From: Psychroserpens damuponensis
Lineage (GTDB): Bacteria > Bacteroidota > Bacteroidia > Flavobacteriales > Flavobacteriaceae
DNA length: 64,000 bases
Assembly (NCBI RefSeq): GCF_000826655.1
Contig: NZ_JXJO01000021.1
Span: 1-64,000 of the forward strand
Direction: 5' to 3'
A program made the position numbers and the translations under genes. Each line of letters opens with the position of its first letter. Position 1 is the first letter of the stretch. A model generated the notes under the pieces. The model had not been told where the DNA came from, did no database searches, and was given only the letters and a program-made list of their open reading frames with translations. Below are positions 1-15,721 of the stretch, in pieces.

Positions 1-131
1 AACGTGTTTGTGTATGATTAGTTGCGTGGTTAGGCAACTAAGTTACCAAACTTTTACGAACCCGTGAAAATTCCGCAGGAATTTTCGCAAGTAGGCTAAA
101 ACCAAGCAATTAATTATACACGGTGTTGTGC
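1..131 (-). repeat. attC-like site A (cut by window edge)
   Basis: The left arm after the AAC core has GTGTATGATTAGTTG; the reverse complement of the right arm has GTGTATAATTAATTG, so they differ only by G/A at arm positions 7 and 12. The distal core is GTTGTGCG at 125-132 and matches the start of cassette 1. An inner hairpin (GAAAATTCC-GCA-GGAATTTTC) sits in the central loop near 66-87. The stop codon of the DUF4393 gene lies about 10 bases from the right end. The left core begins at base 1, so at least one more cassette should lie to the left of the window. Confidence 0.8.
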
Positions 132-140
132 GTTCGTTTT

Positions 141-1034
141 TTATTCAATTTCTTTAATACAAGCATCAATGAACCCTTTTCCTAATGTCGTAAACTCAAT
201 GTACGCTTTTCTAGTATTCAACTCTAGTTTAAATTCATCACCTTTGTAATCGGAAATTTCTTTCTCAATTTTTCCCTTTTGATTTTTATAATCAACATTC
301 TCTAGCTTATCATAAACTTCTAGGTCATATTTATTTAGAGTTTCTCTTTCATAAGAGATTAGTCCATTTTGTTCCAAATTCTCTATATAAATATCAATAT
401 TTTCAGGAAAAATTAAACTTACACTATTTTCAATTCCAGTTAAATTCCAAGCAGCTTTGAGATAAACATCCTCTTTGTTCTGTGTACTGTAATCAATCAT
501 TTGTTTTAATTGCTCTTTAGTTTTCGTTCCCTTATTATCATGAAAATTAGGTTTTTCAAATTTTTCCACATAGCGATGAATATAAAAATCTATAAAAGGA
601 ATTCTCTTACTATTTTTAAAATGGAAAAGTATTTTTGCTTCATCAGCAGAAAGATTATTTAAAATTGAGATATATGAAGGATGTACCAATTTTAATGTTT
701 CATCGAACGAAGCTTTTGTTAATAGATTTATAAAAGTCTCGGCTAATTCATTTTGGTCTAAATAAGTTAGTTTATCAATTATGGGTAAGCCAACATATTG
801 TGGTACTTGAGTTGGTGTTAATTCTGTATTCTTGTTTAATTTGTCAGAGTATTTTTCTAGATTTTTTTCAAAGTAGATTTTTGATTTTGAATTTATTAGT
901 TTAAGAGGTAATAGAATTAAATTTGCACCATCTAAAACTGTTTCTAAAGCTTCTCCAGCTTTTTTCATTCCAGGTTTAAATAGGTCTTTATATAAATCTT
1001 TTATAGGTATATTTCCTAAATATTTCTCTAACAT
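141..1034 (-). CDS. DUF4393 (Abi-alpha-like) protein
   Basis: A 297-residue soluble protein resembling the DUF4393/Abi-alpha family, whose members are linked to abortive phage infection; the molecular activity is unknown to me. The N-terminal helical stretch (AGEALETVLDGANLILLPLK) and the later aspartate/alanine-rich helix near LSADEAKILFHF are the parts I recognise. An open frame continues upstream to 1097, but that extension lies in attC-like site B, so I chose the ATG at 1034, about 20 bases inside the cassette. It is the only gene of cassette 1 and stops about 10 bases before its own recombination site, the compact layout expected of an integron cassette. Family assignment is from memory of the family pattern and is fairly likely; a role in phage defence is inference. 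Confidence 0.7.
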   Translation of the reverse strand: MLEKYLGNIPIKDLYKDLFKPGMKKAGEALETVLDGANLILLPLKLINSKSKIYFEKNLEKYSDKLNKNTELTPTQVPQYVGLPIIDKLTYLDQNELAETFINLLTKASFDETLKLVHPSYISILNNLSADEAKILFHFKNSKRIPFIDFYIHRYVEKFEKPNFHDNKGTKTKEQLKQMIDYSTQNKEDVYLKAAWNLTGIENSVSLIFPENIDIYIENLEQNGLISYERETLNKYDLEVYDKLENVDYKNQKGKIEKEISDYKGDEFKLELNTRKAYIEFTTLGKGFIDACIKEIE

Positions 1035-1054
1035 TCTTTGTTGGTTTAAATGAC

Positions 1055-1251
1055 GCACAACGGTCTTGTGTATGAAACGTAGCGTGAAAAAAGACACTAA
1101 CTTTTCGGATTAAACACGAGCCGAATTTTTATTTTTTCTATTTATCTTTTAATTTCTAAATATACAAAAATAAAAATTTGGTGGACTTAATAAATAAGTA
1201 AAAACCTCTCGGAAAGCCTGTAATAGCTATGTTTTATACACTTTGTTGTGC
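1055..1251 (-). repeat. attC-like site B
   Basis: At about 197 bp this is the longest of the six sites. The left arm reads GTGTATGAAACGTAGC and the right arm (reverse complement) GTGTATAAAACATAGC, again differing by G/A at positions 7 and 12. The left AAC core is followed by six bases (GGTCTT) before GTGTAT, the right by three (AAA). The proximal core GTTGTGCGT belongs to cassette 1; the distal core GTTGTGCATAGTGC matches the start of cassette 2 (GTTGTGCATAATGC). The centre is A/T-rich and holds no gene. Confidence 0.8.
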
Positions 1252-1308
1252 ATAGTGCTTTTCACGTTCAGCTTGGTTTTCCGATGTTTGTTATTTAGTT
1301 CAAATGTG

Positions 1309-1394
1309 AGCGTTGGCAAGACATACTCTTTTGCAATTTTTGGCGTAGCGTTGGCTGGTGCGAATTGTAAATGTGTATGGCTTTTAGCTTTGGC
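1309..1394. repeat. S1 hairpin (second repeat family)
   Basis: An imperfect hairpin with arms at 1322-1338 and 1363-1379. CATAC pairs with GTATG, then TCT faces TGT (T.T, C-G, T.T), then the stem resumes. It is bounded by AGCGTTGGCAA and has a second GCGTTGGC in the loop. It lies at the 3' side of the cassette 2 operon, in the same orientation as S2-S4. Immediately outside it is TTTAGTTCAAATGT (1294-1307), a 14-base direct repeat found again beyond S2. Function unknown. Confidence 0.65.
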
Positions 1395-1422
1395 TTATAA
1401 CAAATAAATTTTCAACATTTTA

Positions 1423-2736
1423 TTAATCCATTATAAACTTAAATCCTGCGGTAATAATGCTAGAAGTAAATGATGTGTCTCTATCGTACTGATAAAATTT
1501 TAAGTCAATACTTTTTAATCCAAATTTCCAAATATGAGCTTTTGCGAAAATATCCGTGTACGATACTCCAAAACCAATTTGATTTGCAGAATATTCGGAA
1601 AGGTCATAATCAGATGTGTAAAACTCATCTGTTGACAAAGCACTTTCATATGGTCTGAAATAGTCGGCAGCTGTTTGATTATAAAACCTATACGATGGAT
1701 ACAATGTAAATTTATCAGTTATTTTAATTGGTACTTCAATACTTGCAGTATGTGAAGTAATTCCCCAATCATCAAAATAATAGCGATAGAATGTTCTTAA
1801 TGTAAATGTTTCATTAAGATACCAATTTAAACGACCACCAACTGCTACTTTAAATCTTGAATCTGGCAAACGCTCAACAGCGTCTGCAAGTTGAAAATTA
1901 TCTATGAATGAATCTGCAACATCGCTAAAATAAACTCTTTGAAATGGTGTAGATAATAAACCTTGCTGTTGTACAAAATCTAATGCTAATGAACCTTGTA
2001 CGTTTTTATGAAGAATTTGAGAGAATCCAAAACCTAAAGAATAAGAATTACGACCTTCATCTTTAAATTCACTAAATCTAGGATTGTAATTTGTGTTTCC
2101 TGTAATTGTGTTTTGTGTAAATAAAGAATTACTTAAACCATTCCCGTTTTCTCCAAATGGTCTTAATTCGGTTGGGTAAATAGCATTCCAAGTATCTATG
2201 TAAACATTTGCATTTACACTTAATTCTGTGTTCTTTTCGTTAAATAATTTTGTGTAACTACCACCAACGCCAGCAGAAAAATAATCATATTCTGATGAAA
2301 TAGATATTTTTGCAGACCAAATATCATTTCTATCGTCAGAGCTATGACTATAACTTCCAGTCAAATTTGCCCATAGGTCGCTACTTGATGCACCAGATGA
2401 TGCTTGAAATGGGTCTGCTGGTTCATCATCAAAAGGGCCAACGTTGCTTGAAGATGCTGATGTGTATGCGGAAACTCCTGCGTCAATGGTCAATACGTCA
2501 TCATCATTTAAAGGTATTGAAACCACAAAAGTTCCTGTAACATCTGTTAATTCTTCAGTACCTATTCCGCCACTTACCGCAGCATTATCTCCATCTTGCG
2601 AGTAGTAACTTGTTAGAAAATCTACTTCTGTAGTTTCTAATACCCGTTTTTTATAAACTTTGGTTGAGTCTTGTCCTGTTTGCGAATATGATTTAGCAAA
2701 AGCAAATACGCATAATATCAAAATAAATTTTTTCAA
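1423..2736 (-). CDS. DUF3570 outer-membrane beta-barrel protein
   Basis: A 437-residue exported protein with an N-terminal signal peptide (LILCVFAFAKSYSQ) and alternating aromatic/polar strands, ending in an aromatic-rich strand (TAGFKFIMD) as in outer-membrane beta-barrels. It looks like the DUF3570 family, which typically lies beside DUF4266 lipoproteins, ApbE and thioredoxin genes, exactly as here. I chose the TTG at 2736 because it gives a normal signal peptide (KKFILIL...) and lies just after the DUF4266 stop; upstream in-frame codons overlap that gene. It is the last gene of a four-gene operon, followed by S1 and site B. Its job is not known to me; a role with the flavinylated partner at the cell surface is inference. 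Confidence 0.75.
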   Translation of the reverse strand: MKKFILILCVFAFAKSYSQTGQDSTKVYKKRVLETTEVDFLTSYYSQDGDNAAVSGGIGTEELTDVTGTFVVSIPLNDDDVLTIDAGVSAYTSASSSNVGPFDDEPADPFQASSGASSSDLWANLTGSYSHSSDDRNDIWSAKISISSEYDYFSAGVGGSYTKLFNEKNTELSVNANVYIDTWNAIYPTELRPFGENGNGLSNSLFTQNTITGNTNYNPRFSEFKDEGRNSYSLGFGFSQILHKNVQGSLALDFVQQQGLLSTPFQRVYFSDVADSFIDNFQLADAVERLPDSRFKVAVGGRLNWYLNETFTLRTFYRYYFDDWGITSHTASIEVPIKITDKFTLYPSYRFYNQTAADYFRPYESALSTDEFYTSDYDLSEYSANQIGFGVSYTDIFAKAHIWKFGLKSIDLKFYQYDRDTSFTSSIITAGFKFIMD

Positions 2737-2749
2737 CTTTCTTGTTTTA

Positions 2750-2962
2750 TTAGTTACAGCCACAGCCTCCTCCAGTTTTTCCTCCATTTGCGCCAACAGC
2801 AGCCTCACGATATGAATGCATTGTGGAAACATTTCTGTCACATTTCTTATCTGCCAATGCCATATCTGGGTCATTTATATTTACTTTTTCGTATTCTTTA
2901 ACCACAACACAGCTACTAAAACAAATTGTTATCAATGTGACACATATAAATTTTTTAATCAT
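2750..2962 (-). CDS. DUF4266 small lipoprotein
   Basis: A 70-residue lipoprotein: signal peptide with lipobox CFSSC (Cys at about 18), then a conserved central part (EYEKVNINDPDMALADKKCD) and a glycine/cysteine-rich tail ending GGGCGCN. This matches the DUF4266 pattern. Its start overlaps the end of the apbE gene by four bases, implying translational coupling. The adjacent ApbE flavin transferase and DUF3570 barrel suggest that this small protein works with them in a periplasmic or surface redox function; being a flavinylation target is possible but unproven, and I see no canonical DGATG-type acceptor motif, so that part is speculation. Confidence 0.75.
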   Translation of the reverse strand: MIKKFICVTLITICFSSCVVVKEYEKVNINDPDMALADKKCDRNVSTMHSYREAAVGANGGKTGGGCGCN

Positions 2963-3939
2963 AATTTATTTATTTCTATATTCTTTGATTTTGTAATATT
3001 TCCATTATCATCTATGATAATACATTCTATTTTTGGTAATTGATTAATGCGGTCTAAACCAGCTTCTTTTCCCATAACAAAAATTGAAGTTGCAAGTGCA
3101 TCCGCTAATTCTGCTTTAGGTGCAAAAACTGTTACACTTATAATTCCAGTTGAAGGATATCCAGTTCTTGGGTCAATAATATGTGTGTATCCTTTGCCAT
3201 TAAAAATTACATACTTTTCATAATTTCCAGAAGTTACTACTGCTCCATTTGTAATTGGAAGTAATGCAAAGACTTTATTTTTATCCATTGGATTAGTAAT
3301 AGCGACTTTCCATTCATTTCCATTGGGTTGTTTTCCCCAAGTATTCATATCTCCAGAAGCATTAATAATTCCAGAAGTTACACCTTTTAAAATCAATAAA
3401 TCTTTAGCTTTGTCTGCTGCATACCCTTTTCCAATAGCACCAAAACCTATTTTCATTCCTTCTAATTTAAGAAATACAGTACTATTTTTTTTGTCTAAAA
3501 CAATGTTTTGATAGCCAACCTTCTCTACAGAAATAGTTGTTTCCTCTTTTGAAGGCATTTTGGTCATACTGCCGTCAAACTTCCAAATCCTGTCCATTGA
3601 AGCATAGCTAATGTCAAAAGCACCATCAGTCAATTTTGAAATGCCTATTGCTCTTTCAATTAAATCAAACAGTTCTTTGTCAACTTTAACAGGTTTAATG
3701 CCTGCATTACGATTAATTTCTGATGTTTGAGAATTATCATCCCAAGATGAAATTAATTTTTCAATTCTTGATATTTCTGCGACAGCAGTATCAATATATT
3801 TATTTGCTTGTATAGAATCGTTTGCCACAACAGTAATGTCAAATCGACTACCCATTAATTTTAGAGTTCTTTTGTAAGATTCTTGAGCGTTACAGCTGAT
3901 TAATGAGATAAATAGTAATAGAGTGATTAACTTTTTCAA
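2959..3939 (-). CDS. apbE: ApbE-family FAD:protein FMN transferase
   Basis: ApbE enzymes move FMN from FAD onto a Ser/Thr of exported partner proteins. This 326-residue copy is a lipoprotein (LISC at about 13-16) and shows the family landmarks: MGSRFDITVVA near residue 29, the GFGAIGKGYAADKA glycine-rich stretch, INASGDMNTWGKQPNG, the THIIDPRTGYPS segment and the C-terminal ADALATSIFVMG. Length is normal. It overlaps the DUF4266 gene by four bases and lies one base after the thioredoxin gene stop, so the operon is trx-apbE-DUF4266-DUF3570. The acceptor protein is not certain. Finding a complete flavinylation module inside a single integron-like cassette is unusual. Confidence 0.9.
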   Translation of the reverse strand: MKKLITLLLFISLISCNAQESYKRTLKLMGSRFDITVVANDSIQANKYIDTAVAEISRIEKLISSWDDNSQTSEINRNAGIKPVKVDKELFDLIERAIGISKLTDGAFDISYASMDRIWKFDGSMTKMPSKEETTISVEKVGYQNIVLDKKNSTVFLKLEGMKIGFGAIGKGYAADKAKDLLILKGVTSGIINASGDMNTWGKQPNGNEWKVAITNPMDKNKVFALLPITNGAVVTSGNYEKYVIFNGKGYTHIIDPRTGYPSTGIISVTVFAPKAELADALATSIFVMGKEAGLDRINQLPKIECIIIDDNGNITKSKNIEINKL

Positions 3940-3940
3940 A

Positions 3941-4381
3941 TTATTTAATAAAAGCGTTTAATTCCTTAATATAATTTTCTGGTGTAGTTTTTTTATAACT
4001 ACTTTCTCCTAATACTTTGCCTTTAGAATCTAGAACTACAACAAAAGGGAAATATCCTTGTTTATTGTATTTTTCGGCAAGTAGTGCGTTCGCTTTTGTT
4101 TGTGTCTCGGATAGTGCATTATTCTTTTTTCTCGGAAAATCTGCTTTTAGCATTACATAATTTTCGTTAGCATACTTTTTAAAAGCCTCTGTACTCCAAA
4201 TTTCTCTATCAAGTTTAATACAAGGCGCACACCAATCTGAACCTTGAAATACTAATATTATAGGTTTACTTTCTTTGGATGCGAGTTCTTTTGCAACGTT
4301 AATATCTGTATTCCAATCTTGAGCCATTGTTGTGCTTACGCTTACAAACATTACTACTAATACCACAATTATTTTTTTCAT
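3941..4381 (-). CDS. Exported thioredoxin-fold protein
   Basis: A 146-residue protein with signal peptide (cleavage after TTMAQ, about residue 21) and a thioredoxin fold whose active site is WCAPC at about 52-56, followed by the cis-Pro region YFPFVVVLD. It resembles the thioredoxin_7/DsbD-gamma-like periplasmic thioredoxins and should reduce or isomerise disulfides in the periplasm. It is the first gene of cassette 2. Possible clients are the cysteine-rich DUF4266 lipoprotein and other partners of the same operon (inference). Confidence 0.88.
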   Translation of the reverse strand: MKKIIVVLVVMFVSVSTTMAQDWNTDINVAKELASKESKPIILVFQGSDWCAPCIKLDREIWSTEAFKKYANENYVMLKADFPRKKNNALSETQTKANALLAEKYNKQGYFPFVVVLDSKGKVLGESSYKKTTPENYIKELNAFIK

Positions 4382-4504
4382 TTTAATATTATTTATTTTT
4401 CATAAATGGATAGTCAACAATTAGACCAATACCTATAAACGAATGTATTATTTTTTTGTTATATATCAGCTCATTTTTTTCAGTTGAATATATAGAGTCA
4501 ATTC

Positions 4505-4593
4505 GAGCGTTGGCAAAAAACAGCTCTTTTATTTTTTTAGCGTTGGCTTTTTAGAGCGTTGGCAAAAAATAAATGTGCTGTTTGTGCGTTGGC
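4505..4593. repeat. S2 hairpin (second repeat family)
   Basis: Arms at 4521-4537 and 4564-4580. CAGC pairs with GCTG, then the same TCT/TGT internal loop as in S1, then an A/T stem. Four copies of GCGTTGGC lie within and around it in direct orientation. It sits at the 5' side of the cassette 2 operon, directly oriented with respect to S1, and is followed by the 14-base direct repeat TTTAGTTCAAATGT (4597-4610) that also precedes S1. With site C it accounts for the 394-base gene-free stretch upstream of the thioredoxin gene. Confidence 0.65.
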
Positions 4594-4637
4594 GTTTTTA
4601 GTTCAAATGTTCAATTTTAGCACGATTTTCGCATTAT

Positions 4638-4770
4638 GCACAACGTGTTTGTATATGGAAAGTAGCAGATTTATATGTGCCATTTTTCAGTTTAAAAACA
4701 AAGATAGCAGAAATGAACTAAACTTTAAATTTAGCTCTTAACTGCTATTTTTTATATACGTTGTTGGCAA
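4638..4770 (-). repeat. attC-like site C
   Basis: The left arm is GTATATGGAAAGTAGCAG and the right arm (reverse complement) GTATATAAAAAATAGCAG, with G/A differences at positions 7, 8 and 12. The left core AAC is followed by GTGTTT, the right by AAC before GTATAT. The proximal core (GTTGTGCATAATGC on the minus strand) belongs to cassette 2; the distal core GTTGGCAACAGTATT matches the start of cassette 3. The AhpD-like gene stops five bases beyond the distal core. Confidence 0.82.
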
Positions 4771-4775
4771 CAGTA

Positions 4776-5228
4776 TTATTTTTGTACTTTATAATTTCCT
4801 GCAGGCAATTTGAACGTTCTAACTAACCTTGTCCAAGTATTTATTTGAGACACAGCAAACGTTATGTTACAAATTTCTTCTGTGTTAAAATATTTGGTTA
4901 AAGCATTGAAAATATCATCCGATATATCTTTTTCACTTAACTCTGTTAAGGCTTCTGTAAATTTAAGGACTACTCTTTCTTTTTCAGTAAAGAAAGAGGT
5001 ATTATTCCAAACACTAATAGTTGACAAACGTAATTCCGTCTCCCCTTTATGCCTTAACTCTTTATAATGCATATCAATGCAGTAAGTACACTTGTTAATT
5101 TGTGCCACCCTTAAACGCATTAACTCTAAAAGTTGAAAATCTAATGTTGATTCTTTAAGATATTTTTCTATTCCCATTAATTTCTCTACCATTTCTTTGG
5201 GAATTTGATTAAATTTAATTCGTTCCAT
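4776..5228 (-). CDS. Carboxymuconolactone decarboxylase / AhpD-like protein
   Basis: A 150-residue cytoplasmic protein of the CMD/AhpD-like all-helical family. The redox motif CTYCIDMHYKE (C-x2-C-x3-H) near residues 48-58 is the alkylhydroperoxidase signature, followed by ISVWNNTSFFTEKERVVLKFTEALT. It resembles the YnjB/Pxd-type AhpD proteins that detoxify peroxides or organic electrophiles. It is the last gene of cassette 3 and ends almost on the recombination site. The same cassette holds a second CMD-fold protein, suggesting a shared stress-detoxification role (inference). Confidence 0.87.
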   Translation of the reverse strand: MERIKFNQIPKEMVEKLMGIEKYLKESTLDFQLLELMRLRVAQINKCTYCIDMHYKELRHKGETELRLSTISVWNNTSFFTEKERVVLKFTEALTELSEKDISDDIFNALTKYFNTEEICNITFAVSQINTWTRLVRTFKLPAGNYKVQK

Positions 5229-5284
5229 AGTTTTTATTATTTTTTGAATGAAGTCTATATATTCTCTTTACCTAATTTGTAAAT

Positions 5285-5791
5285 TTAATTTTCTTTTTTA
5301 GTATAATATTTTGAAGTAATAATGGCAATTGGAAGCCCAACTAAAACCATATGCCAAATTATTCCAACAATTGCTAAATTTATATCAAAAGGACTTTTAG
5401 GTATATTTGATTGAGGTAATACAATCAAATTCATCACTAGCCAAATAGCTAAGCCAAATAGCAACCCCATTAATGCTACGTTTTTTCTTAAAAATGAAAG
5501 TTTAGGAAATAAGAAAAAATAGACAATAGCACATACGTATGCTATTATAAAATGATAAATAGTACCTGCTAATATCATTAGAAAACCACTATTGATTGCT
5601 TCTGGACCGTGTATTCCTGATGCTATAAATTGTAATACTTGCAACGGATTTAAACCAAAGAATATATAATAGACAATTACGCCTGCTATTGCATCTAATA
5701 TTCCAGCTACTAAACCAGACCAAAGTATGGTTTTTGTAGCGCTAGATGATTTTGTAAAGTCAAAAATCGATGTTATTTTATTTGCTTTCAT
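5285..5791 (-). CDS. Multi-pass membrane protein of unknown function
   Basis: A 168-residue integral membrane protein with about four hydrophobic helices (near residues 22-48, 65-95, 105-128 and 142-162) and a short loop IASGIHGPEAINSG after the first. I do not recognise the family with confidence; the pattern recalls small Bacteroidota inner-membrane proteins of the YagU/DUF1440 kind. It lies between two CMD-family genes in cassette 3, six bases after the upstream gene, so it is probably co-transcribed and may take part in the same stress response. Confidence 0.7.
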   Translation of the reverse strand: MKANKITSIFDFTKSSSATKTILWSGLVAGILDAIAGVIVYYIFFGLNPLQVLQFIASGIHGPEAINSGFLMILAGTIYHFIIAYVCAIVYFFLFPKLSFLRKNVALMGLLFGLAIWLVMNLIVLPQSNIPKSPFDINLAIVGIIWHMVLVGLPIAIITSKYYTKKEN

Positions 5792-5796
5792 TTTTT

Positions 5797-6345
5797 TTAA
5801 ATTTTTGGGACTTCAGGGAAGTCGATTTTAATTTGAGTGATATTGTGAAGATAATTTGTGATTGTTTTTTCACCTATTTGTAGGATAACATCAATTAAGT
5901 GACCTTGATTATAGCCTTCATTAAAAAATAGCTCCAAATATTTTTGGTTTATTTTTCCACGCGTGTTTACAATGTCTTGACTTAATTTTATCAGAGCGTT
6001 TAGTTTCCTATCAAAAGAAGCTTGCCCGCTTCTAATTTCTATAGCTTCAGAATCTGTAAAACCATTCATTTTCCCAATTACTGTATGAGCTGCTCTACAA
6101 TAGTTACAATCATTTACTTCGCTTACAATAAGATTGATAACTTCTTTTTCCTTATTGGTTAAAGATGAAATGGCATTTTGGAATGAAATATATCTATTCA
6201 AGCCATTATCAGATAAGCCAAGAGTTGCAAACAAATTGGGCATAAAGCCTACAGATTTTACAATAGCATCGTAAACAGGTGCATTGGTTTTAGACATTTG
6301 TTCCCGTATAGGAACTTCAAATTTGATTTTAGAATTTGTATTCAT
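5797..6345 (-). CDS. Carboxymuconolactone decarboxylase-family (peroxidase-related) protein
   Basis: A 182-residue CMD-family protein. An N-terminal YDAIVKSVGFMPNLFATLG segment is typical of the uncharacterised peroxidase-related branch, followed by the redox motif CNYCRAAHT (C-x2-C-x3-H) near residues 79-87. Such proteins use the two cysteines and histidine to reduce hydroperoxides. It is the second gene of cassette 3, 100 bases after the Crp/Fnr gene; that gap contains A/T-rich sequence with ATCTTTG-like elements, so it may have its own promoter. Confidence 0.87.
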   Translation of the reverse strand: MNTNSKIKFEVPIREQMSKTNAPVYDAIVKSVGFMPNLFATLGLSDNGLNRYISFQNAISSLTNKEKEVINLIVSEVNDCNYCRAAHTVIGKMNGFTDSEAIEIRSGQASFDRKLNALIKLSQDIVNTRGKINQKYLELFFNEGYNQGHLIDVILQIGEKTITNYLHNITQIKIDFPEVPKI

Positions 6346-6445
6346 AATTCTTTGTGTTTTTATTTATGACACAAAGATTAGAACATAAAGATTATTATGA
6401 ATTCAGATATCTGAAGAAATAATGTTCGTATAGCTGAACATTTAA

Positions 6446-7030: not shown

Positions 7031-7044
7031 TTTTAGAATATTGT

Positions 7045-7178
7045 TGCCAACGGTCTTGTGTATGGAAAGTTGCGTTTTTGTGTGCGAGGATTTTCCGAAG
7101 GAAAATCAGACGTAACAAAAATGCAACAACCTTTGTTTAAGCACTAATGTAGCAATTTTCTATACACGTTGTTGTGGT
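7045..7178 (-). repeat. attC-like site D
   Basis: The left arm is GTGTATGGAAAGTTGC and the right arm (reverse complement) GTGTATAGAAAATTGC, with G/A differences at positions 7 and 12. AAC-GGTCTT on the left faces AAC-AAC on the right. The loop has an inner perfect hairpin GATTTTCC-GAA-GGAAAATC. The proximal core belongs to cassette 3 (GTTGGCAACAATATT); the distal core GTTGTGGTGTCG matches the start of cassette 4 (GTTGTGGTGCAT). Confidence 0.83.
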
Positions 7179-7187
7179 GTCGTTTTT

Positions 7188-8395: not shown

Positions 8396-8401
8396 ATTCC
8401 A

Positions 8402-9583
8402 CTATACCATTAAATCATAACTTTCACTTGGTGGAAATAGCAATTCAATTCCTTTTGGTTTGATTTTAAAAAGCGGACCTTTTTCGACAACTTTTCCTTT
8501 CGAGTTTCGCTTAATTAAATGGTCAAGCGTTATAATTCCTTGTTCAATTAGTAAATCAAATTGAGAGGTAATGGGCTTTTTTGTATGCTCTACCAACTTA
8601 TATTGAAAATGTTCTCGGTCATTTATTCTTGTACTTTCAGCTTCTACCCAAAACGTTTCTTTATGTTTAGATTTTAGTCGGTTGTGAAGTTTGTCTAATG
8701 TCCAAACCACAAAATCGCCAACTTCTGGTTTGTCAGAGTTTTCAATTAATTGCTTTATGTCGCTATCAATTCTTAAATTCAAGCCTTGTGAATTTCTTGT
8801 AATGGCTGAAACTGTGCAATAAAGCTTAAAATCTTCATCACGTTCGTAGCCAAAGTTATCGAGAATTTCCGCTGAACTTTTAAACTTGCTCAATTTCCAA
8901 TCTGGAACTTGTGCAAACAAATTTTTTCGGTTCGTTCTACTATTTCTGAACGATTTAAGCTCAATTCCTTTATAATCTGGTTGTTTGGAAGAATTAATAT
9001 CTATTCCGAGTGCAGTTTCAAGTGTTCGACCTACAGAAGTATCAGCATCAACCATTGAAGGAATTGGACCAGCATTTGCAATTTTTCTCAACATTGCTAA
9101 AAGCTCAAAAGCAACTTCATTTTCTGTCGTACTGATTGCATTAATTAGTTCCTGAAATGGATTTAGAATTGAAGAATAAATTAATTCCTTGATATCTAAT
9201 TTTGTCAAGTTAAAAACTTGAAAACTATCGTTGTAAAAAGTGATTCCAATAATATCATTTGGGTCAGCAACTTTTGTTAAACCATAAAACCAAATTCTTG
9301 GGTCTCCTTTTTTAGTTGAAGGACGATATAGAGATGCTTTTGATTTTAAAATATTAAAACCAGTATGAATAATTGCTGGAATCATTACTTTGCTCTCTGT
9401 ACCTTGATTCTGCAACTCATAATCGTGAATATTCTCACTTTTTAAATAACTACGAACAGAACCAGTCGCATCCATAATGGATTTTTTTAATCCGGTTTCG
9501 GTTGGCTCAATTAAAGTAAGAGAAACTTGGTTTTTGGTCAGTAATTTTATCTTTTCTTGTTCTGCGTTTGTAAGTTTTCTCAC
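8402..9583 (-). CDS. MvaI/BcnI-like type II restriction endonuclease
   Basis: A 393-residue cytoplasmic protein that I assign to the MvaI/BcnI-type restriction endonucleases. The catalytic signature D203-x4-E208-x-K210 in PDYKGIELKS fits the D-x4-E-x-K active site known for MvaI; other family-like segments are DTSVGRTLETALGI just before it and FWVEAESTR in the C-terminal half. It should cut short GC-rich sites, but the specificity cannot be read from sequence. Its ATG overlaps the methyltransferase stop by four bases (coupled translation). It is the second gene of cassette 5, followed at once by hairpin S3. The long N-terminal part (1-170) is beyond the catalytic domain and may be a DNA-recognition or dimerisation region. 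Confidence 0.82.
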   Translation of the reverse strand: MRKLTNAEQEKIKLLTKNQVSLTLIEPTETGLKKSIMDATGSVRSYLKSENIHDYELQNQGTESKVMIPAIIHTGFNILKSKASLYRPSTKKGDPRIWFYGLTKVADPNDIIGITFYNDSFQVFNLTKLDIKELIYSSILNPFQELINAISTTENEVAFELLAMLRKIANAGPIPSMVDADTSVGRTLETALGIDINSSKQPDYKGIELKSFRNSRTNRKNLFAQVPDWKLSKFKSSAEILDNFGYERDEDFKLYCTVSAITRNSQGLNLRIDSDIKQLIENSDKPEVGDFVVWTLDKLHNRLKSKHKETFWVEAESTRINDREHFQYKLVEHTKKPITSQFDLLIEQGIITLDHLIKRNSKGKVVEKGPLFKIKPKGIELLFPPSESYDLMV

Positions 9584-11787
9584 TTGATATATTTTAAAAT
9601 TTCACTTGCTACTGCTCGTGCTAATAAAGGTGGTACAGCATTTCCAACTAAAGTGTATTGCGGTACTTCTGTTTTTCTATTATTTCCTCCAGTTGAGCGT
9701 TTTCCTTGAAATACAAAAGAGTCGTCAAAGGACTGTAATCGTGCCATTTCTCTTACTGTTAAAGACCTTGGCGAATTATAATGAATATAATCGTCTGCAA
9801 TAGTCATTATTGTGGAACTTTGTTCATCTGGTTTTAAAACATTATAGTTTCTCTTATTCGTAGAAAGATTTAATTTCTCAAGTTCTGGTTGTGCTTTTTT
9901 ATAATTACCATTTTTTAAAATCACACCAAGTCTTTCAATAACGGTTTCGTTTTGATTACTTGTTTTGTGATTGTTAAGTATGTCGAAATATTTTTCTCCG
10001 TTTTCTAAACCTTCAGTGTTCTTTACGTAAAAGGGTTTTGTTTGAGGTTTAAAACGGTCAATTAATCTACCTTTTTTTGACCATTCTGCAAAGGACTTTC
10101 CTCCTTTTGAAATTGGTTTCCCATCAATTTTTCTTTTCTTTAAAAGTTTAGCCATTTTCTTTGCAGTTCCATTGTATTGAGTTGAAATGTCAACTAATTC
10201 GTATCTGTGAGCTTCTTGATTATTACCTATAAAATCTAAATCATACAAAGCTTCAAAAATGGTTACTTTTTCTGCTTCAGTAACTGTTGCTGGTATTTCA
10301 GAAATATATTTCTGGTCTTTACGACAACCAATGAAAAGCACTCTTTCTCTGTTTTGTGGAACACCATAATTGGAAGCGTTAGCAACAAAAGGTTGTTCTA
10401 TTTTATAAAGTCTAATACTTTCAAGAATTGTTTCTAATTCCTGTTTTTGTGTTTTATTACAATGAGTTTTTAATATCTCAATTGACTCGTCAAAAGAAGT
10501 GGTGTAAATTTTTAATGCAGTAATAATATCTTCACAATCTTTTTTATAGTTGGCAGGAACTTTTAAATTTTTAAATGAATTCTCGATTTTTGAAATAATA
10601 TTTTCAGAGCCAATTTCTGTAAGGAAGTCAGTAAAAGCAGTTGTGAAATTATCACTATCAATATTACAAAAGTCTTTCTCTTTAATAATATCACGCTTTA
10701 ATTTATCCCATTCTTTGGTTCGTGCTAAAAGATTAAAACCGTGACGGATTGTGTTTATGTTTTCGTCTGTTTTACTGGTTTTGTAGTCTGCAATTTTTGG
10801 TGTTATCTTTTTAAATCTGTTTTCTACAAAGTTGATGAAATCAGCTTTTCCATTTTCTTTGTCATTCTCCAGTAGCTTTTCGATTTCAACTCTTTTAATT
10901 ATTGTATCGAAAAGAAATGAATTTGATACTTTACTGACTTTTTTTATAAATGAAATTAATTGAGGAATTTCTTTAGTATCCACAATAGAGTTGATTTCTT
11001 GAAGAATTAACTCTTTTATTTTACCACCTTCTTTAGTCAAAATGCCTTTTACATTTTCCATCACAAAGTATTTAGGTTGTAAAACCTTAATGACTTCTAA
11101 ATAATGAGAAAATAGGTCGTCTTTTTTGTCGAATTTTTTTCTCTTTCCTGCAAGACTAAAACTTTGACAAGGTGGTCCACCACAGACAACATCTATTTGA
11201 CGACCGTCAATTTTTTCTAATAAATTGTCTAAAAAGTCTGGTTCAGTAATATCTTGTTTTAAAAATTCAGCATCTAAACCTAATTGATGATTGTAGCGAA
11301 CAACGTGAGTTAACTCACAGTTTTCGTTTATATCATTAGCCACAATAAAATCAAAGAATTTATTGTTATGTTCAGCTTGTAAAAACCCTTCGCTAAAACC
11401 ACCAGCTCCAGCAAATAAATCAACAAAAGTGAACGGTTTTCCGTAAAGTGAAACTTGTTCTTTTACAATGTTTACATTACTGTTTTCTTTGTAGTTTTCT
11501 ATGTGTTCATTTAAAAGGCTTTTAACTTCGTCTTGGATAAAAGTCTTTTTGTTGGAATGGTGAAGAAGTTCGTCAGCTCTTTCTCTTAAAAAATCCAAAT
11601 AATGATTTATTTCGTGAGATTCTGTAGTTAAACCAATCGCTTTTTGTTTGGATTTGTCAAATTTTTTAGGTTCTATTTTTTGACCTGTCGAAACCTTAAC
11701 TTGACTTCCGTTACAGTTTATTCGCAGATGTATTGGTGCAAACCCTTTTTTGTCAGGTTTGTCTAAATAAAAATTAATTGTTGCCAT
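9580..11787 (-). CDS. DNA (cytosine-5) methyltransferase with integrase-type arm domain
   Basis: A 735-residue modification enzyme of the adjacent restriction system. Residues 121-735 form a C5-methyltransferase: motif I VDLFAGAGGFSEGF (122-135), catalytic PCQ in GGPPCQSFS (Cys207), motif VI ENV (244-246), QNRERVLFIG (motif VIII), LTVREMARLQSF (motif IX) and VGNAVPPLLA (motif X). A long insertion (about 250-470), largely charged and helical, separates motifs VI and VIII. Residues 1-95 (INFYLDK...GFAPIHLRI..., then INHYLDFLRERADEL) look like the arm DNA-binding domain that starts Bacteroidota phage-type integrases, a surprising fusion. The gene is translationally coupled to the endonuclease behind it, and S4 lies about 90 bases upstream. 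Confidence 0.92.
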   Translation of the reverse strand: MATINFYLDKPDKKGFAPIHLRINCNGSQVKVSTGQKIEPKKFDKSKQKAIGLTTESHEINHYLDFLRERADELLHHSNKKTFIQDEVKSLLNEHIENYKENSNVNIVKEQVSLYGKPFTFVDLFAGAGGFSEGFLQAEHNNKFFDFIVANDINENCELTHVVRYNHQLGLDAEFLKQDITEPDFLDNLLEKIDGRQIDVVCGGPPCQSFSLAGKRKKFDKKDDLFSHYLEVIKVLQPKYFVMENVKGILTKEGGKIKELILQEINSIVDTKEIPQLISFIKKVSKVSNSFLFDTIIKRVEIEKLLENDKENGKADFINFVENRFKKITPKIADYKTSKTDENINTIRHGFNLLARTKEWDKLKRDIIKEKDFCNIDSDNFTTAFTDFLTEIGSENIISKIENSFKNLKVPANYKKDCEDIITALKIYTTSFDESIEILKTHCNKTQKQELETILESIRLYKIEQPFVANASNYGVPQNRERVLFIGCRKDQKYISEIPATVTEAEKVTIFEALYDLDFIGNNQEAHRYELVDISTQYNGTAKKMAKLLKKRKIDGKPISKGGKSFAEWSKKGRLIDRFKPQTKPFYVKNTEGLENGEKYFDILNNHKTSNQNETVIERLGVILKNGNYKKAQPELEKLNLSTNKRNYNVLKPDEQSSTIMTIADDYIHYNSPRSLTVREMARLQSFDDSFVFQGKRSTGGNNRKTEVPQYTLVGNAVPPLLARAVASEILKYIK

Positions 11788-11876
11788 AATTATTCGCGGA
11801 CGTTTTTACGTACACGGACAAATTTACGGACATTTTTTGTAATTTCTAATTTAATTCTACTTTTTGTTCGGATTAT

Positions 11877-11949
11877 GCGTTGGAAAAAGGCAAGCTCTTT
11901 TTATTTTGTGAGGCACGAGCAAAATAAAATGTGCTTGACTGTGCGGCTG
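11877..11949. repeat. S4 hairpin (second repeat family)
   Basis: Arms at 11891-11908 and 11920-11937: CAAGC/GCTTG, then the TCT/TGT internal loop, then a perfect TTTTATTTTG stem with an 11-base loop. It is the cleanest member of the S family. It lies upstream of the methyltransferase, in the same orientation as S3, and is followed by GGCTGGTTTTCGCTTGC, which resembles the flank of S3. With site F it accounts for the 325-base gene-free stretch here. Confidence 0.65.
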
Positions 11950-11961
11950 GTTTTCGCTTGC

Positions 11962-12094
11962 AGGTAACGGTTTTGTGTATGAGTAGTAGCGAATTAAAAT
12001 CACTACTTTTTCAGAAAGTAATGTACAAAATAAAAAGTAATAGCGATTTGAATTATTACTCAAATCGCTATTACTTATACACGTTGTTAGCAAA
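11962..12094 (-). repeat. attC-like site F
   Basis: The best-matched site. The left arm is GTGTATGAGTAGTAGC and the right arm (reverse complement) GTGTATAAGTAATAGC, with G/A differences at positions 7 and 12. AAC-GGTTTT faces AAC-AAC. The proximal core belongs to cassette 5 (GTTACCTGC); the distal core GTTAGCAAACGTTA matches the start of cassette 6 (GTTAGCAAACATTA) at the integrase end. Confidence 0.85.
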
Positions 12095-12112
12095 CGTTAT
12101 TTTCAATTGCGT

Positions 12113-12466
12113 TTAAACTATTGCTTCTGATTTATGTAAACTAACTACAGTTAGAACTGCAATTCCATTTATCCAATAATAATAGGCATCTATTCCCTCG
12201 AAAGAAAAAATAAAAGGTGCAATTATGAATACTATTGCTACAATAAAATCTACTATTAAATGTACTCTATATGAAATTACTTTAAACGCTCCCAAATGAT
12301 GGTCTGTTAGCAATGTCAAAACAAAGGCTGCAACTCCAGTAGCAACTGAAAGTTGTAAAGCTAAAGGATTTGAATCTCCTAATCCAAGTATAAACGGAAG
12401 TGCTATTAATGCAATGGCAACAGGATAATCTAAAAAAGCGTGTATTCTTTTGGTTACAAATTTCAT
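12113..12466 (-). CDS. SPW-repeat-like small membrane protein
   Basis: A 117-residue integral membrane protein with four hydrophobic helices. Two repeats start with a His-Asp pair (RIHAFLDYPVAIALIALPFILGLG and RVHLIVDFIVAIVFIIAPFIF), matching the SPW-repeat pattern of short duplicated two-helix units. Its biochemical role is unknown. It is the last gene of cassette 6, 11 bases after the YHS gene, and stops 19 bases before the distal core of site F. Confidence 0.75.
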   Translation of the reverse strand: MKFVTKRIHAFLDYPVAIALIALPFILGLGDSNPLALQLSVATGVAAFVLTLLTDHHLGAFKVISYRVHLIVDFIVAIVFIIAPFIFSFEGIDAYYYWINGIAVLTVVSLHKSEAIV

Positions 12467-12477
12467 ATTTTTAATTT

Positions 12478-12951
12478 TTAATTGTGAGTTTTACTAAGTT
12501 TTTGCCAATTCTTGTCAGCAGCACTTTTTAACTTATTGTGATTATTTTCTGCTAACCAGAGTTGTTTTGCATCTAGTTCAACATTGTTTAAGTACAGATA
12601 GTATTTTCCGTTTTCTACAATAAATTTGTTTGGGTCAACTCTAAATTTTGCTCCTGCATAACAACCAAATGCACAAAAACCACCATATTGAGGAAGGTAT
12701 TTGTCTGGGTTTTTATCAAACGTTGCTTTTTGTTCTGCTGATGTAAAGTAGTATACGACCTTTTTGTAATCAGACTTGAAATTTTTATTCCCTTTTTGTG
12801 CAAGTCCTAGATCTAAGTAAGAAACAGGGCTATATCCTTGTAATGCGATATTACTATTGTCAATATTGTTTGCCTTTTTATCTTGTGCAAATACTACTGA
12901 ACTCATTACTAATGCTAATCCTAAAATTGTTGTTTTTATTAAATTTTTCAT
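12478..12951 (-). CDS. Exported YHS-domain protein
   Basis: A 157-residue exported protein: signal peptide ending SSVVFAQ (about residue 23), then a YHS domain (ALQGYSPVSYLDLGLAQKG ... VVYYFTSAEQKATFDKNPDKYLPQYGGFCAFGCYAGAKF cut here for length). YHS domains are small, often metal-associated modules; the FCAFGCYAGAKF segment offers two cysteines. Homologues in Bacteroidota are annotated only as YHS domain-containing. Third gene of cassette 6, 31 bases after the NTF2-like gene. Confidence 0.85.
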   Translation of the reverse strand: MKNLIKTTILGLALVMSSVVFAQDKKANNIDNSNIALQGYSPVSYLDLGLAQKGNKNFKSDYKKVVYYFTSAEQKATFDKNPDKYLPQYGGFCAFGCYAGAKFRVDPNKFIVENGKYYLYLNNVELDAKQLWLAENNHNKLKSAADKNWQKLSKTHN

Positions 12952-12982
12952 TTTATTAATTTTTATGATTGTTTAAACTTTA

Positions 12983-13336
12983 TTATTCTGCGTTGAAATA
13001 TTCTTCTTGAATTACTTTTCCATCAGCATTCCATATTCTGCGAATGATTTCGTGCCAGTAAATCTTACTGCCATCTTTCATATCGAAATCGAATGTAAAT
13101 TCAGATGCTGATACATTCCCATCTACAATAGAGTGATGATGAGTTATGCTATTTACCTTTGCTATTGCTCCAGCAAATCCTTCCATTTTAGCAATCATTT
13201 CTGTCTTTCCGGTAGTTCCACCATTTCCGTAATCAGAAGTATTTGCATTGTCTGCAAAGAATTCTTTTACAGCATCTACAATAGCTCCTTGAGAAACTAT
13301 TGCATCCATTTTTTGTACTTGTTCTTTAATATTCAT
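12983..13336 (-). CDS. NTF2/SnoaL-like protein
   Basis: A 117-residue cytoplasmic alpha+beta-barrel protein of the SnoaL/NTF2-like superfamily: helix AIVDAVKEFFADNANTSDYG, then strands with HHHSIVDGNVSASEFTFDF and IYWHEIIRRIWNADGKVIQEEYF. Such small folds bind or isomerise small ligands; no specific function can be assigned. It is the first gene after the AraC regulator and likely its target. The 70-base gap contains CATCTTTGC, near the Bacteroidota -7 pattern, and probably a promoter. Confidence 0.8.
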   Translation of the reverse strand: MNIKEQVQKMDAIVSQGAIVDAVKEFFADNANTSDYGNGGTTGKTEMIAKMEGFAGAIAKVNSITHHHSIVDGNVSASEFTFDFDMKDGSKIYWHEIIRRIWNADGKVIQEEYFNAE

Positions 13337-13406
13337 CTTATTTGTGTTTTTAAATTACACTGCAAAGATGAGATGGTATTAAAGTTTAGTTGCTACAAAA
13401 AAAAGA

Positions 13407-14465
13407 CTAAGAATTGTACTTTTTTAATTTGAATTCGGTAGGTGTAATTTTAGAATAATGTTTAAAGAATCTTGAAAAGTGATTTGGTTCTTCAAATCCT
13501 AATTGTCTAGAAATTGATGTAATCGATTGTCCTTCGAGGATCATCAATTTAGCAGAGTTGATTAATTCTAAACGTATAAGCTGACCTAGTGAAGTATTCA
13601 TTTTCGCTCTGACTTTATTGGATAATGCTTTTATAGAAAGATTCATTTCGTTAGCATAAAATTCAAGAGACCTTTCTTTTGTGTGATATTTTTGCAGAAG
13701 TTCTAAAATATCCTGTGAAAATAAATCTCTGTTTTCAAAATCGAAGTTTTCTCTGAATTGTTTAGGTGTTTGACCTATTGAATTCTTGAAAACTCTATTG
13801 AAATAAGCATCATCTTTATATCCTAAATCATAAGAGATTTCTTGAATGTTTTTATTTGTAAACGCAACTTCTTTAAGGCTTTCTTGCAGTCTTTTTGATT
13901 TTATCAAGTTTTTTACGGTTAATCCGACTTTGTTCTTGATTAATGCTTGTGCATTGTAACCTCTGTCATTAATGAGGTTTACTAAATCGTTGCTAGTTAA
14001 ATTATTGGAATATTCATCATCAATAATTTCTTTGGTGTCAAAAATAACTTGATATTCTTCTTTGTTAGCTTTAAATGGATTTTGCCAAAACCATTGCTTA
14101 GAGGAAATATCAATAATATCAGCTGAATTATGAGTCAAAGTGGTTTCTGATAGGAAAGTGTTGCAATCTTCACATTCTAATAAATCTATATAACCTAGAG
14201 AAATTATGTGTTTAAACAAGACTCTCACATCATTGTCATAAAATTTATTTTCATTAGAGAATTCAATTCTTCTAACTATAAAATCGTCTGATAAAAATTT
14301 AATGTATTGCCCTTTTTCTAAAAAGATTGCTTTTTCTTGCCAATCAAAATAGTTTTTAAAATCGACCTGAATACTTCCTTTCCCAGAAAGAATATGAATT
14401 AAAGTATAGCTTTCTATGAAGTATACTTTATTAATTTCTGGTGAAAACTTTTCTACTTTTTGCAT
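13407..14465 (-). CDS. AraC-family regulator with two DNA-binding domains
   Basis: A 352-residue regulator. An N-terminal cupin-like sensor part (about 15-70; YTLIHILSGKGSIQVDF) is followed by two separate AraC-type double helix-turn-helix modules, at about 161-240 (IQEISYDLGYKDDAYFNRVFKNSIGQTP) and 251-350 (ITSISRQLGFEEPNHFSRFFKHYSKITP). Both retain the usual glycine, phenylalanine and TP signature residues; these strings are given only as landmarks. Most AraC proteins have one module. It is the first gene of cassette 6, starting 22 bases from the predicted attI junction, and probably controls the three genes behind it. Confidence 0.88.
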   Translation of the reverse strand: MQKVEKFSPEINKVYFIESYTLIHILSGKGSIQVDFKNYFDWQEKAIFLEKGQYIKFLSDDFIVRRIEFSNENKFYDNDVRVLFKHIISLGYIDLLECEDCNTFLSETTLTHNSADIIDISSKQWFWQNPFKANKEEYQVIFDTKEIIDDEYSNNLTSNDLVNLINDRGYNAQALIKNKVGLTVKNLIKSKRLQESLKEVAFTNKNIQEISYDLGYKDDAYFNRVFKNSIGQTPKQFRENFDFENRDLFSQDILELLQKYHTKERSLEFYANEMNLSIKALSNKVRAKMNTSLGQLIRLELINSAKLMILEGQSITSISRQLGFEEPNHFSRFFKHYSKITPTEFKLKKYNS

Positions 14466-14486
14466 TCTGTTGGGTAATGTTTGCTA

Positions 14487-14510
14487 ACACGTATATATAC
14501 GAAACGTGTA
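14487..14510 (-). other. attI-like junction next to the integrase
   Basis: The AAC core at 14486-14488 (GTTAGCAAAC on the minus strand) forms the 5' end of cassette 6. Immediately beyond it is a perfect 12-base palindrome CGTATATATACG (14490-14501) enclosed by ACACG and CGTGT. There is no long second arm as in the six attC-like sites, as expected for an attI site that is not a large hairpin. The call rests on position between integrase and first cassette; strand-exchange activity is not shown. Confidence 0.6.
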
Positions 14511-14606
14511 CTCAAAGATAACAAAATTTTAATCATAGCAGAAATTCAAGTATAGCTTGCTATAATAAAAAATTACATGTGCGCATTTTATGTATCATTC
14601 ATTTTT

Positions 14607-14639
14607 TTTGACTAAATTTAACAATGTTTGATATTTATA
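14607..14639 (+). promoter_or_regulatory. Possible integrase promoter
   Basis: TTTG at 14607-14610 and TATTTATA at 14632-14639, 21 bases apart, approximate the Bacteroidota -33 (TTTG) and -7 (TAnnTTTG) elements. The integrase ATG is 14 bases further on. The -7 match is imperfect. I saw no obvious LexA-type operator here. Confidence 0.35.
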
Positions 14640-14653
14640 ATACGCATATCTAA

Positions 14654-15721
14654 ATGAATCTAAAGTCTTATACCTTCTTATTGGGAACTCATAGAAACAA
14701 AAACGTAATTTGGGTGCATTTTACCTTTAGTATAAAACTTAAAAATGAATTTAGAAAACGTTTTCCATCTGCCAAATGGAGCCAAACAACCAAACAATGG
14801 TATCTTCTAGATTTTCCAGCAGTGAGATCTGTATTAAATATTAAAGTAGATAGCGCTTACTCAAAACTAAAGAAGCAAATCCATCCTAATAATAAAATAG
14901 CATTTCAAAAATTTAACCAACAATTAGAATTAAAAGCATACAGCCCAAATACCTGCAGAATGTATTTGTCCGAATTTGCGCATCTACTCATCATATTAAA
15001 TCATATTTCTGTTGATAGCCTGTCTCATAAACGACTAAAAGATTATTTCTTATACTGTGTAAAGACTTTAAAAATGAAAGAAAGAAAAATGAATGGCAAA
15101 ATTAATGCTGTTAAGTTTTACTTCGAAAAAGTCATGCACGAACCCAAAATGTTTTTTGATATACCAAGGCCAAAAACACCTGCTACTTTGCCTAAAATGT
15201 TGAGTAAAGCCGAAATTAAACGACTTTTTAATCAGGTGAACAATGAAAAACATTTACTCATTTTAAAACTGTGCTATGGTATGGGTTTACGAGTAAGTGA
15301 AATAGTGACTATAAAAATTCATCATATCGATAGTGATAGAATGCAAGTTCTTATTGCTGGATCTAAGGGTAAAAAAGATAGATATGTAAACTTACCAGAA
15401 AGCATTTTAGACGCCTTAAGAACATATTATAAAAATTATAAACCAAAAGAATGGCTTTTTGAAGGTCAATACAAAGGTGCCTATAGCTCACGTAGTGTAC
15501 AAGCTGTTTTTAAACGTGCTATGGGAAAAGCAGGTATAAAGAAACAAATAGGTATTCATGGTTTGCGCCATAGCTACGCTACACATCTTTTAGAAAGTGG
15601 AGCAGACCTACGTTTTATCCAACAGCTATTAGGGCATCATAGTATTAAAACCACTCAAATCTATACACATGTGTCTAACAGAACAAGATCAAATCTTAAA
15701 AGTCCTTTAGATTCTTTATAA
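14654..15721 (+). CDS. Integron-type tyrosine recombinase
   Basis: A 355-residue tyrosine recombinase, divergent from the cassette array. An N-terminal domain of about 70 residues (PSAKWSQTTKQWYLLDFPAV at 38-57, recalling HARP-like helicase add-on domains) precedes the core-binding domain (about 75-165) and the catalytic domain (about 175-355). Catalytic residues are R213 (GLRVSE), K240/241 (KGKKDR), H302 and R305 (HGLRH), H328 (LGHH) and Y337 (IYTHV). It ends SPLDSL, like the SPLDAL tail of IntI1. Between LPES (247-250) and HGLRH there are about 50 residues, clearly fewer than in IntI1, so the IntI-specific extra domain seems absent. Being next to the array and attI-like core, it most likely moves the cassettes (inference); a XerC/D-like integrase of another element is the alternative. 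Confidence 0.92.
   Translation: MNLKSYTFLLGTHRNKNVIWVHFTFSIKLKNEFRKRFPSAKWSQTTKQWYLLDFPAVRSVLNIKVDSAYSKLKKQIHPNNKIAFQKFNQQLELKAYSPNTCRMYLSEFAHLLIILNHISVDSLSHKRLKDYFLYCVKTLKMKERKMNGKINAVKFYFEKVMHEPKMFFDIPRPKTPATLPKMLSKAEIKRLFNQVNNEKHLLILKLCYGMGLRVSEIVTIKIHHIDSDRMQVLIAGSKGKKDRYVNLPESILDALRTYYKNYKPKEWLFEGQYKGAYSSRSVQAVFKRAMGKAGIKKQIGIHGLRHSYATHLLESGADLRFIQQLLGHHSIKTTQIYTHVSNRTRSNLKSPLDSL

Follow-up and report, generated by a model that had tools for sequence, protein, structure and literature searches.

An integron-like cassette array headed by a divergent tyrosine recombinase in Psychroserpens damuponensis

Contig C21 (NZ_JXJO01000021.1) of Psychroserpens damuponensis begins with an array of gene cassettes next to a tyrosine recombinase gene. 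We analyzed the first 64,000 bases of this contig (the window) in the context of the whole genome (3.95 Mb, 106 contigs). Six palindromic sites divide positions 4-14488 into six cassettes on the minus strand, counted from an attI-like site beside the recombinase (Table 1); read on that strand, all six sites run AAC...GTT. The cassettes comprise 16 minus-strand genes in units of 1.06-3.81 kb each, and the recombinase is divergent to them. A covariance model built from the six window sites, which are also its training set, was scanned over the 64 kb and recovered no other site; scores of 100.8-132.7 bits set the six apart from noise, the next best match reaching 11.4. A preliminary description, made from the sequence alone, had reported six same-family palindromes, 16 same-strand genes in six units and a divergent recombinase, all of which the model and the gene coordinates confirmed; the five core heptamers quoted there (GTTAGCA, GTTACCT, GTTGGCA, GTTGTGC, GTTGTGG) are present in the sequence. 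It had also seen large multi-gene cassettes as a trait of the system. This holds for the window but not for the genome, where cassettes from other contigs have a median length of 872 bp (n=35); the large cassettes are a peculiarity of this stretch and atypical for the organism.

As had been suggested, we ran the model on the whole genome and on relatives. In P. damuponensis it gave 79 matches at E ≤1, of which 54 lie on 14 contigs of ≤6.4 kb, several of them ending inside a site; when cut sites are included, the examined stretches hold 83. Some contigs end at the crossover GTT (window, L045) or 11 nt past its first base (L050, L056), as if the assembly had met several alternatives there. The closed genome of a member of the same genus (G002) had 280 matches in 280 kb, one counted twice (thus ∼279), all on the plus strand. 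Its array spans 1838268-2097321 (259 kb), with a recombinase at the proximal end (1836327-1837433), and among the best 150 matches genome-wide a single one lies outside the array, on the other strand. In P. damuponensis, scattered sites far from arrays occur on contigs C1, C41, C18 and C15, with no nearby recombinase match on them.

The strongest regularity of the array concerns the cassette ends. In all six window cassettes, the start (GTT...) is the reverse complement of the cassette's own end over 8-10 nt counted from GTT, the start of cassette 1 lying at a seventh, attI-like junction that adjoins the recombinase. Core variants thus pair between the two ends of one cassette, not inside one site. 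We counted this match over the four variable bases in further genomes, namely G002 and the relatives G006, G011 and G014, and in loci L037-L045. The sites were taken from a motif-based finder that allowed 2-3 mismatches and therefore dropped degenerate sites (263 versus 280 by the model in G002, 63 versus 83 in P. damuponensis), and site pairs >6 kb apart were excluded from the counts and the profile. Start and own end matched in 37/42 cassettes of P. damuponensis, 175/261 of G002, 15/19 of G014, 9/19 of G006, 7/11 of G011 and 3/3 of loci L037-L045, compared to within-site matches of 4/63, 15/263, 1/20, 0/21, 2/13 and 0/6, respectively, and to 0.05-0.21, depending on the group, for randomly paired cassette ends. 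A profile over 336 cassettes resolved a 14-nt box, in which GTT and seven further bases match, one position mismatches and three match again, with chance agreement beyond. The mismatch is fixed: the start has A in 336/336, and the reverse-complemented end has G in 296/336. The pairing of an R''-type end with the start of its own cassette, by which integrons are recognized, is therefore present. A match between two sites, rather than within one, is unexpected for RNA hairpins or repeats and expected for circles that refold the site.

Further evidence comes from cassettes found in different surroundings. Among 359 extracted cassettes, with the comparison limited to lengths of 150-7000 bp, we found 487 pairs homologous over the whole cassette, of which 486 link cassettes of G002 to one another and a single pair joins G002 with P. 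damuponensis; across all these pairs, the neighbors were homologous in 16 of 972 tests. In G002, 48 cassettes form 44 near-identical pairs of equal length (8 pairs identical), with homologous neighbors in 4 of 87 tests. Identity within these pairs falls directly past the closing GTT and is at family level ahead of the opening GTT. A 90% identical copy of cassette 5, over 3587 bp, stands beside a second recombinase on contig C17 of P. damuponensis, its edges 1 and 6 nt off the predicted ones. A further comparison is with the orthologous locus of G014, made with the first 26 kb of the window: homology starts at 14482, at the attI-like junction, and continues in three pieces (68-82%) to at least 24562, where the examined G014 stretch ends, whereas leftward of 14482 only the sites match in blastn and the cassettes differ. 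Likewise, two recombinase copies of G006, 98% identical over 1787 bp and ending 14 nt past the junction GTT, carry different first cassettes. Gain, loss or reordering of cassettes between relatives, a further mark of integrons, was thus found. The preliminary description had named a shared gene order in related strains as the outcome that would speak against mobile cassettes; G014 keeps ∼10 kb beside attI with other cassettes, which favors mobility. Its proposal of an integron plan of a distinct kind with recent activity is borne out by the matching ends, the dispersed near-identical cassettes and the different cassettes at an orthologous attI. We consider it highly probable, judging from sequence comparison, that window 4-14488 is the head of an array, with six cassettes that the divergent Xer/IntI-like recombinase would excise as circles and insert beside its own gene.

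Two arrangements of recombinase and array occur. In type A (window, G014, G028 and those loci among L037-L044 that have sites) recombinase and array diverge, whereas in type B (C17 of P. damuponensis, G002, G006, G011 and others) the recombinase lies on the same strand directly upstream. R1 sites were found upstream of 9/13 type A recombinases. The attI-like junction could be identified by comparison in 11 of 12 type A loci, L067 being degenerate, and a first cassette, where present, starts with GTT-N7-A in 10/10 type A loci and in 10/10 type B loci (by eye). A site beside the recombinase at which first cassettes change, as attI is defined, was thus recovered by comparison, with the change itself seen in two comparisons. 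The motif TANNTTTG, which we take to be the Bacteroidetes -7 element, occurs within 60 nt of the junction in 10/12 loci, where 0.041 would be expected per stretch searched. Inside the array, TTG-N17-23-TANNTTTG leads just 17 of 359 cassettes (3 on the opposite strand), so most cassettes have no recognized promoter. Between recombinase start and attI (window 14520-14653) we also observed an inverted repeat such as TGCGTATTT...AAATACGCA, with a counterpart in the same region of several of the loci L037-L042, L044 and L066-L068, which is perhaps an operator of the recombinase gene.

To characterize the sites, we aligned 121 of them from 18 sources and several genera. The inner box covaries, with compensatory changes in 13/14 pairs (247 cells versus 46.4 in shuffles) and 96.0% of cells paired versus ≤56.5% in slid controls, a result biased in favor of the structure, because a model of this structure guided the alignment. 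Two inner mismatches are near-constant, with A (116 and 121/121) opposite C (116 and 119/121); an outer one has C in 92/121 (G in 24) opposite A in 118/121. On the complementary strand A.C becomes T.G; in a sample of 120 out of 388 sites, 111 gave the more stable fold on that strand. A constant extrahelical base, as expected of integrons, was not found in the 121 sites, the commonest bulge column being a gap in 93/121 and filled in 28/121; instead, the A.C mismatches are near-constant.

Classical integrons have the same plan, with a divergently placed integrase, attI, cassettes all on one strand and R boxes that are complementary within each cassette, and the preliminary description had matched the locus to the integron plan of intI, attI and attC-ended cassettes. 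The most serious alternative is that the locus is a classical integron, in which an IntI-family recombinase uses attC sites that standard tools simply overlook. The protein has a ∼75-residue N-terminal β-β-α-β-β-α domain, a SAM-like domain and a catalytic domain with the RKHRH-Y residues, recognized by the Pfam Phage_integrase model; R213, K238, H302, R305, H328 and Y337 are invariant across 21 aligned sequences. The accepted criterion for integron integrases, as given in PMC9668308, is an IntI-specific additional domain near patch III, and we found none in the window recombinase. The integron integrase model TIGR02249 scored 190.3 bits (cut-off 265) and aligned only at 2-179 and 240-315, ∼18 residues replacing the 60 model positions 180-239. 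In the whole genome, 0/12 matches to this model exceeded the cut-off and positions 180-239 stayed unmatched; below-cut-off matches occurred in 14/14 control genomes as well, so a match of this kind is uninformative. A phmmer alignment to IntI4 split in two at the same region, and alignment with XerC and XerD of the same genome showed no insertion in the window recombinase. In favor of IntI, an AlphaFold2 model (mean predicted local distance difference test score 85.7, predicted template modeling score 0.62) had IntI4 (2A3V, E 2.3e-16) as its first Foldseek match and best solved structure, followed by XerA. The best NCBIfam model was NF040815 (213.6 bits, cut-off 220), and the Xer family thresholds were not reached either (XerC 180.2 versus 335.15, XerD 176 versus 329.6). 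Among named recombinases, the nearest ones come from Psychroserpens (P0002, 87%; P0003, 81%).

In a 35-row tree, array recombinases and IntI were separated from Xer (100/97), and IntI joined two proteobacterial IS91-linked recombinases (93/85, with long branches), not the array recombinases. A first tree had grouped array recombinases with IntI (100/98), which was lost with wider sampling. An approximately unbiased (AU) test rejected a constraint uniting a named group with IntI (p-AU 0.005) but says little, as the constrained group omitted nested plasmid rows. With the missing domain, the position of IntI in the tree and the lack of a constant extrahelical base, we regard a classical integron as very unlikely. 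The system is integron-like in its working principle and, by the IntI-domain criterion of its recombinase, not a member of the integrons.

For the N-terminal domain, a HARP-like identity was considered and is kept as a lead only: PF07443 matched two of ten N-termini (E 9.2e-4 and 0.062), below the gathering score, and the Deltex family matched another of the ten at E 9.3e-4, which places the HARP signal near chance. This signal, of a structure-specific DNA-binding family, was weak and seen in type B relatives only. A Foldseek search with the N-terminal domain model (window 14654-14866, plus strand) gave nothing better than E 1e-3. Some relatives are shorter, lack the full domain and diverge from sites 1-7 kb away (G093 C33, G101 C44, G109 C4, G229 C17), so this part of the protein is perhaps dispensable.

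From these sequences we infer recombination, circles and the use of single strands. Recombination at C/GTT would connect the attI-like site with the site of a cassette. Its substrate would be the folded bottom strand, the complement of the coding strand, in which A.C become T.G and the hairpin is more stable; the A.C/T.G positions may set strand choice instead of extrahelical bases, and first cassettes would be read from a promoter beside attI. The I2 helix is credited in PMC3053210 with contacts to the second extrahelical base, and the joint absence here of an I2-type enzyme part and of a constant base is consistent with the contacts described there. With considerable reserve, we lean towards regarding the system as a second, separately evolved integron-type machine, which has an Xer-like recombinase without the I2 region, folded single-stranded hairpins, fixed A.C/T.G positions read where IntI reads flipped-out bases, arrays of ∼280 cassettes and gene exchange across the phylum.

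Sites and recombinase occur together in many genomes. Of 57 relatives, 39 have sites at E ≤1e-5 (23/23 of the genus) and 36 a recombinase at E ≤1e-65 (22/23 of the genus), the type A protein of the window being found in 4/57 at E ≤1e-80. By hand count, 35 have both, 4 sites only, 1 the recombinase only and 17 neither. In 392 sampled Bacteroidota genomes, sites (E ≤1e-6) were found in 132 and a strong recombinase (E ≤1e-65, a cut chosen after the score table was known) in 120, with both in 84 and neither in 224 (Fisher p 2.6e-23, which overstates independence as the genomes are related). Sites scattered without a recombinase had been named beforehand as evidence against mobility; the strong co-occurrence stands against this, while a few solo sites and the 48 of 132 site-bearing phylum genomes without a strong match agree with it. 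The same 48, together with 4/39 site-bearing relatives lacking a strong match and the stops in some array recombinase copies, would also fit cassette movement in trans by some other recombinase, such as the housekeeping XerC/XerD, with the neighboring recombinase as a passenger. We consider this very unlikely, given the co-occurrence and the linkage of array recombinases to the attI end in two arrangements and several genera; the XerC-like and XerD-like genes of P. damuponensis lie on C30 and elsewhere on C17. That the palindromes are RNA elements (terminators) or repeats of the repetitive extragenic palindrome or miniature inverted-repeat transposable element type (REP/MITE) between genes, without any cassette movement, is exceedingly improbable, for although they fold, sit between genes and have scattered copies on C1, C41, C18 and C15, their variable arms pair between neighboring sites and not within a site, homology of cassette copies stops at GTT, 280/280 G002 matches lie on one strand, an orthologous locus has wholly different cassettes, and independence from bordering genes on either strand, as in REP/MITE repeats, was not found. 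An Rfam scan gave 12 matches at E ≤5, none at the gathering score and none that we read as corresponding to the sites; a sub-threshold mir-548 match overlaps S6.

Several observations weigh against movement of the cassettes by the array recombinase as we propose it. No R1 sites were found beside four of 13 type A recombinases (L041, L043, L045, L076/G033), the first three of which have <0.6 kb of upstream sequence to search. In-frame stops interrupt two of three recombinase copies of G006 (C1:140091-141215 and C1:180296-181420, one each; the third is open); the two interrupted copies are near-identical to each other. Copies of one cassette differ in the last 2-3 nt ahead of the closing GTT, and cleavage may therefore not fall exactly at G/TT. 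Dispersed near-identical cassettes were seen in G002 only, with the one whole-cassette homologue between G002 and P. damuponensis, and the exact four-base end match is absent in 86/261 G002 and 10/19 G006 cassettes. Finally, sites without a strong recombinase match occur in G012 (88% complete) and three other relatives and in 48/392 phylum genomes, and 36/392 have the recombinase without detected sites.

Table 1. Features of the cassette array in the window
Feature	Position	Strand	Remarks
Tyrosine recombinase	14654-15721	+	type A, 355 aa
Promoter-like TATCTTTG	14513-14520	-	reads into array
attI-like junction	14482-14511	-	...CGTATATATACGTG/TTAGCAAACA on minus strand; crossover AAC 14486-14488
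Cassette 1	11969-14488	-	AraC-type regulator 13407-14465; 117-aa protein 12983-13336; YHS-domain protein 12478-12951; SPW protein 12113-12466
S6 recombination site	11962-12092	-	covariance model
Cassette 2	8160-11968	-	cytosine-5 methyltransferase 9580-11787; MvaI/BcnI-family restriction endonuclease 8402-9583
S5 recombination site	8153-8284	-	covariance model
Cassette 3	7052-8159	-	335-aa protein 7188-8195, no Pfam match
S4 recombination site	7045-7177	-	covariance model
Cassette 4	4645-7051	-	CMD proteins 5797-6345 and 4776-5228; by sequence appearance alone, cyclic-nucleotide-binding-type regulator 6446-7030 and membrane protein 5285-5791
S3 recombination site	4638-4769	-	covariance model
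Cassette 5	1062-4644	-	thioredoxin-like 3941-4381; ApbE 2959-3939; small lipoprotein-like 2750-2962 (appearance alone); 483-aa barrel-like protein 1423-2874
S2 recombination site	1055-1251	-	covariance model
Cassette 6	4-1061	-	Abi_alpha protein 141-1097
S1 recombination site	1-131	-	contig end cuts S1 exactly at crossover GTT

The window carries an AraC regulator set, an MvaI/BcnI-type restriction-modification pair, an Abi_alpha protein and an ApbE/thioredoxin/barrel set, whose 483-residue barrel-like protein is probably the single DUF3570 match. In cassette 2, the cytosine methyltransferase begins with an Arm-DNA-bind_5 domain of the integrase type (E 4.5e-8). Of the 303 extracted cassettes with an open reading frame (ORF) of at least 60 aa, 294 carry their longest ORF on the strand of the sites, and 56/359 have no such ORF. 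In the G002 array (L104-L117) this concerns 55/263 cassettes, and many near-identical cassettes are ∼596 bp long; these ORF-less and ∼596-bp cassettes are probably gene-less. A scan of 145 of 250 cluster representatives found defense-type cargo, PADLOC matches (E ≤1e-5) including Fic, TIR and SAVED types, to which Pfam adds AbiH. On a Chryseobacterium plasmid (L188, NZ_CP041688.1), a relative of the recombinase precedes a stretch with small genes and five weak sites, with the end rule apparent by eye for one cassette only; the plasmid is a possible mobile form.

Among known systems, the array most resembles sedentary chromosomal (super)integrons such as that of Vibrio cholerae, described as having the integrase gene beside attI and long one-strand arrays of mostly small cassettes. 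Shared are also the R'' box complementary to the start of its own cassette, the asymmetric unpaired spacer and gene-less cassettes, which the title of PMC11014356 names; for the promoter at attI, a motif is the possible counterpart here. In contrast to these, the recombinase has no IntI-specific domain, the inner box forms a conserved, covarying stem in which A.C positions are fixed (T.G on the bottom strand) and no extrahelical base is constant, the attI-like sites are built on TATATA-containing palindromes, and in type B loci the recombinase gene shares one strand with the cassettes. The complementary end box is 14 nt long with one fixed mismatch, whereas the self-pairing of classical integrons extends 9-11 nt in the description of PMC2727003.

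XerA-like simple tyrosine recombinases (NF040815; PDB 4A8E, 5HXY) provide the best NCBIfam model and the best PDB sequence match and likewise have no IntI domain. XerA-type recombinases act at one dif site. The array recombinase differs from them by its score under the family cut-off, its extra ∼75-residue N-terminal domain, its separation from Xer in the tree and its linkage to an array of many sites. In XerCD integration of a filamentous phage, as presented in PMC4792948, a folded single-strand attP hairpin without extrahelical bases is used by an enzyme without an I2-like domain, as would be the case here, but the enzymes are those of host dimer resolution, acting at one site without a cassette array. 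The recombinases beside IS91-family transposases (L197, L198) fall into the same tree supergroup as the array recombinases but are paired with a transposase, in the ∼1.6 kb examined there.

The gain of I2 by an Xer-like ancestor has been discussed as a step toward integrons (Escudero et al., PMC4792948). Integrons as such are not new to Bacteroidota: intI genes were reported in the Bacteroidetes/Chlorobi group (PMC2426708), the phylum is listed among those with integrons (PMC8618304), and, for complete integrons in Bacteroidetes, the relevant passage of a 2022 paper (IntegronFinder 2.0, PMC9024848) names Salinibacter ruber alone, in addition to earlier In0 elements. In titles and abstract beginnings of the open-access literature, we found no report of the present system among the matches listed. 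Integron surveys depend on IntI with the extra domain and on attC models and would probably miss it. The system makes it testable whether the I2 region and extrahelical bases are required or an Xer-like enzyme and mismatched stems are enough. Since anti-phage and restriction genes occur in its cassettes, it may be a route of defense-gene exchange in marine Flavobacteriaceae, and many Bacteroidota likely capture and swap genes through an integron-like system of their own.

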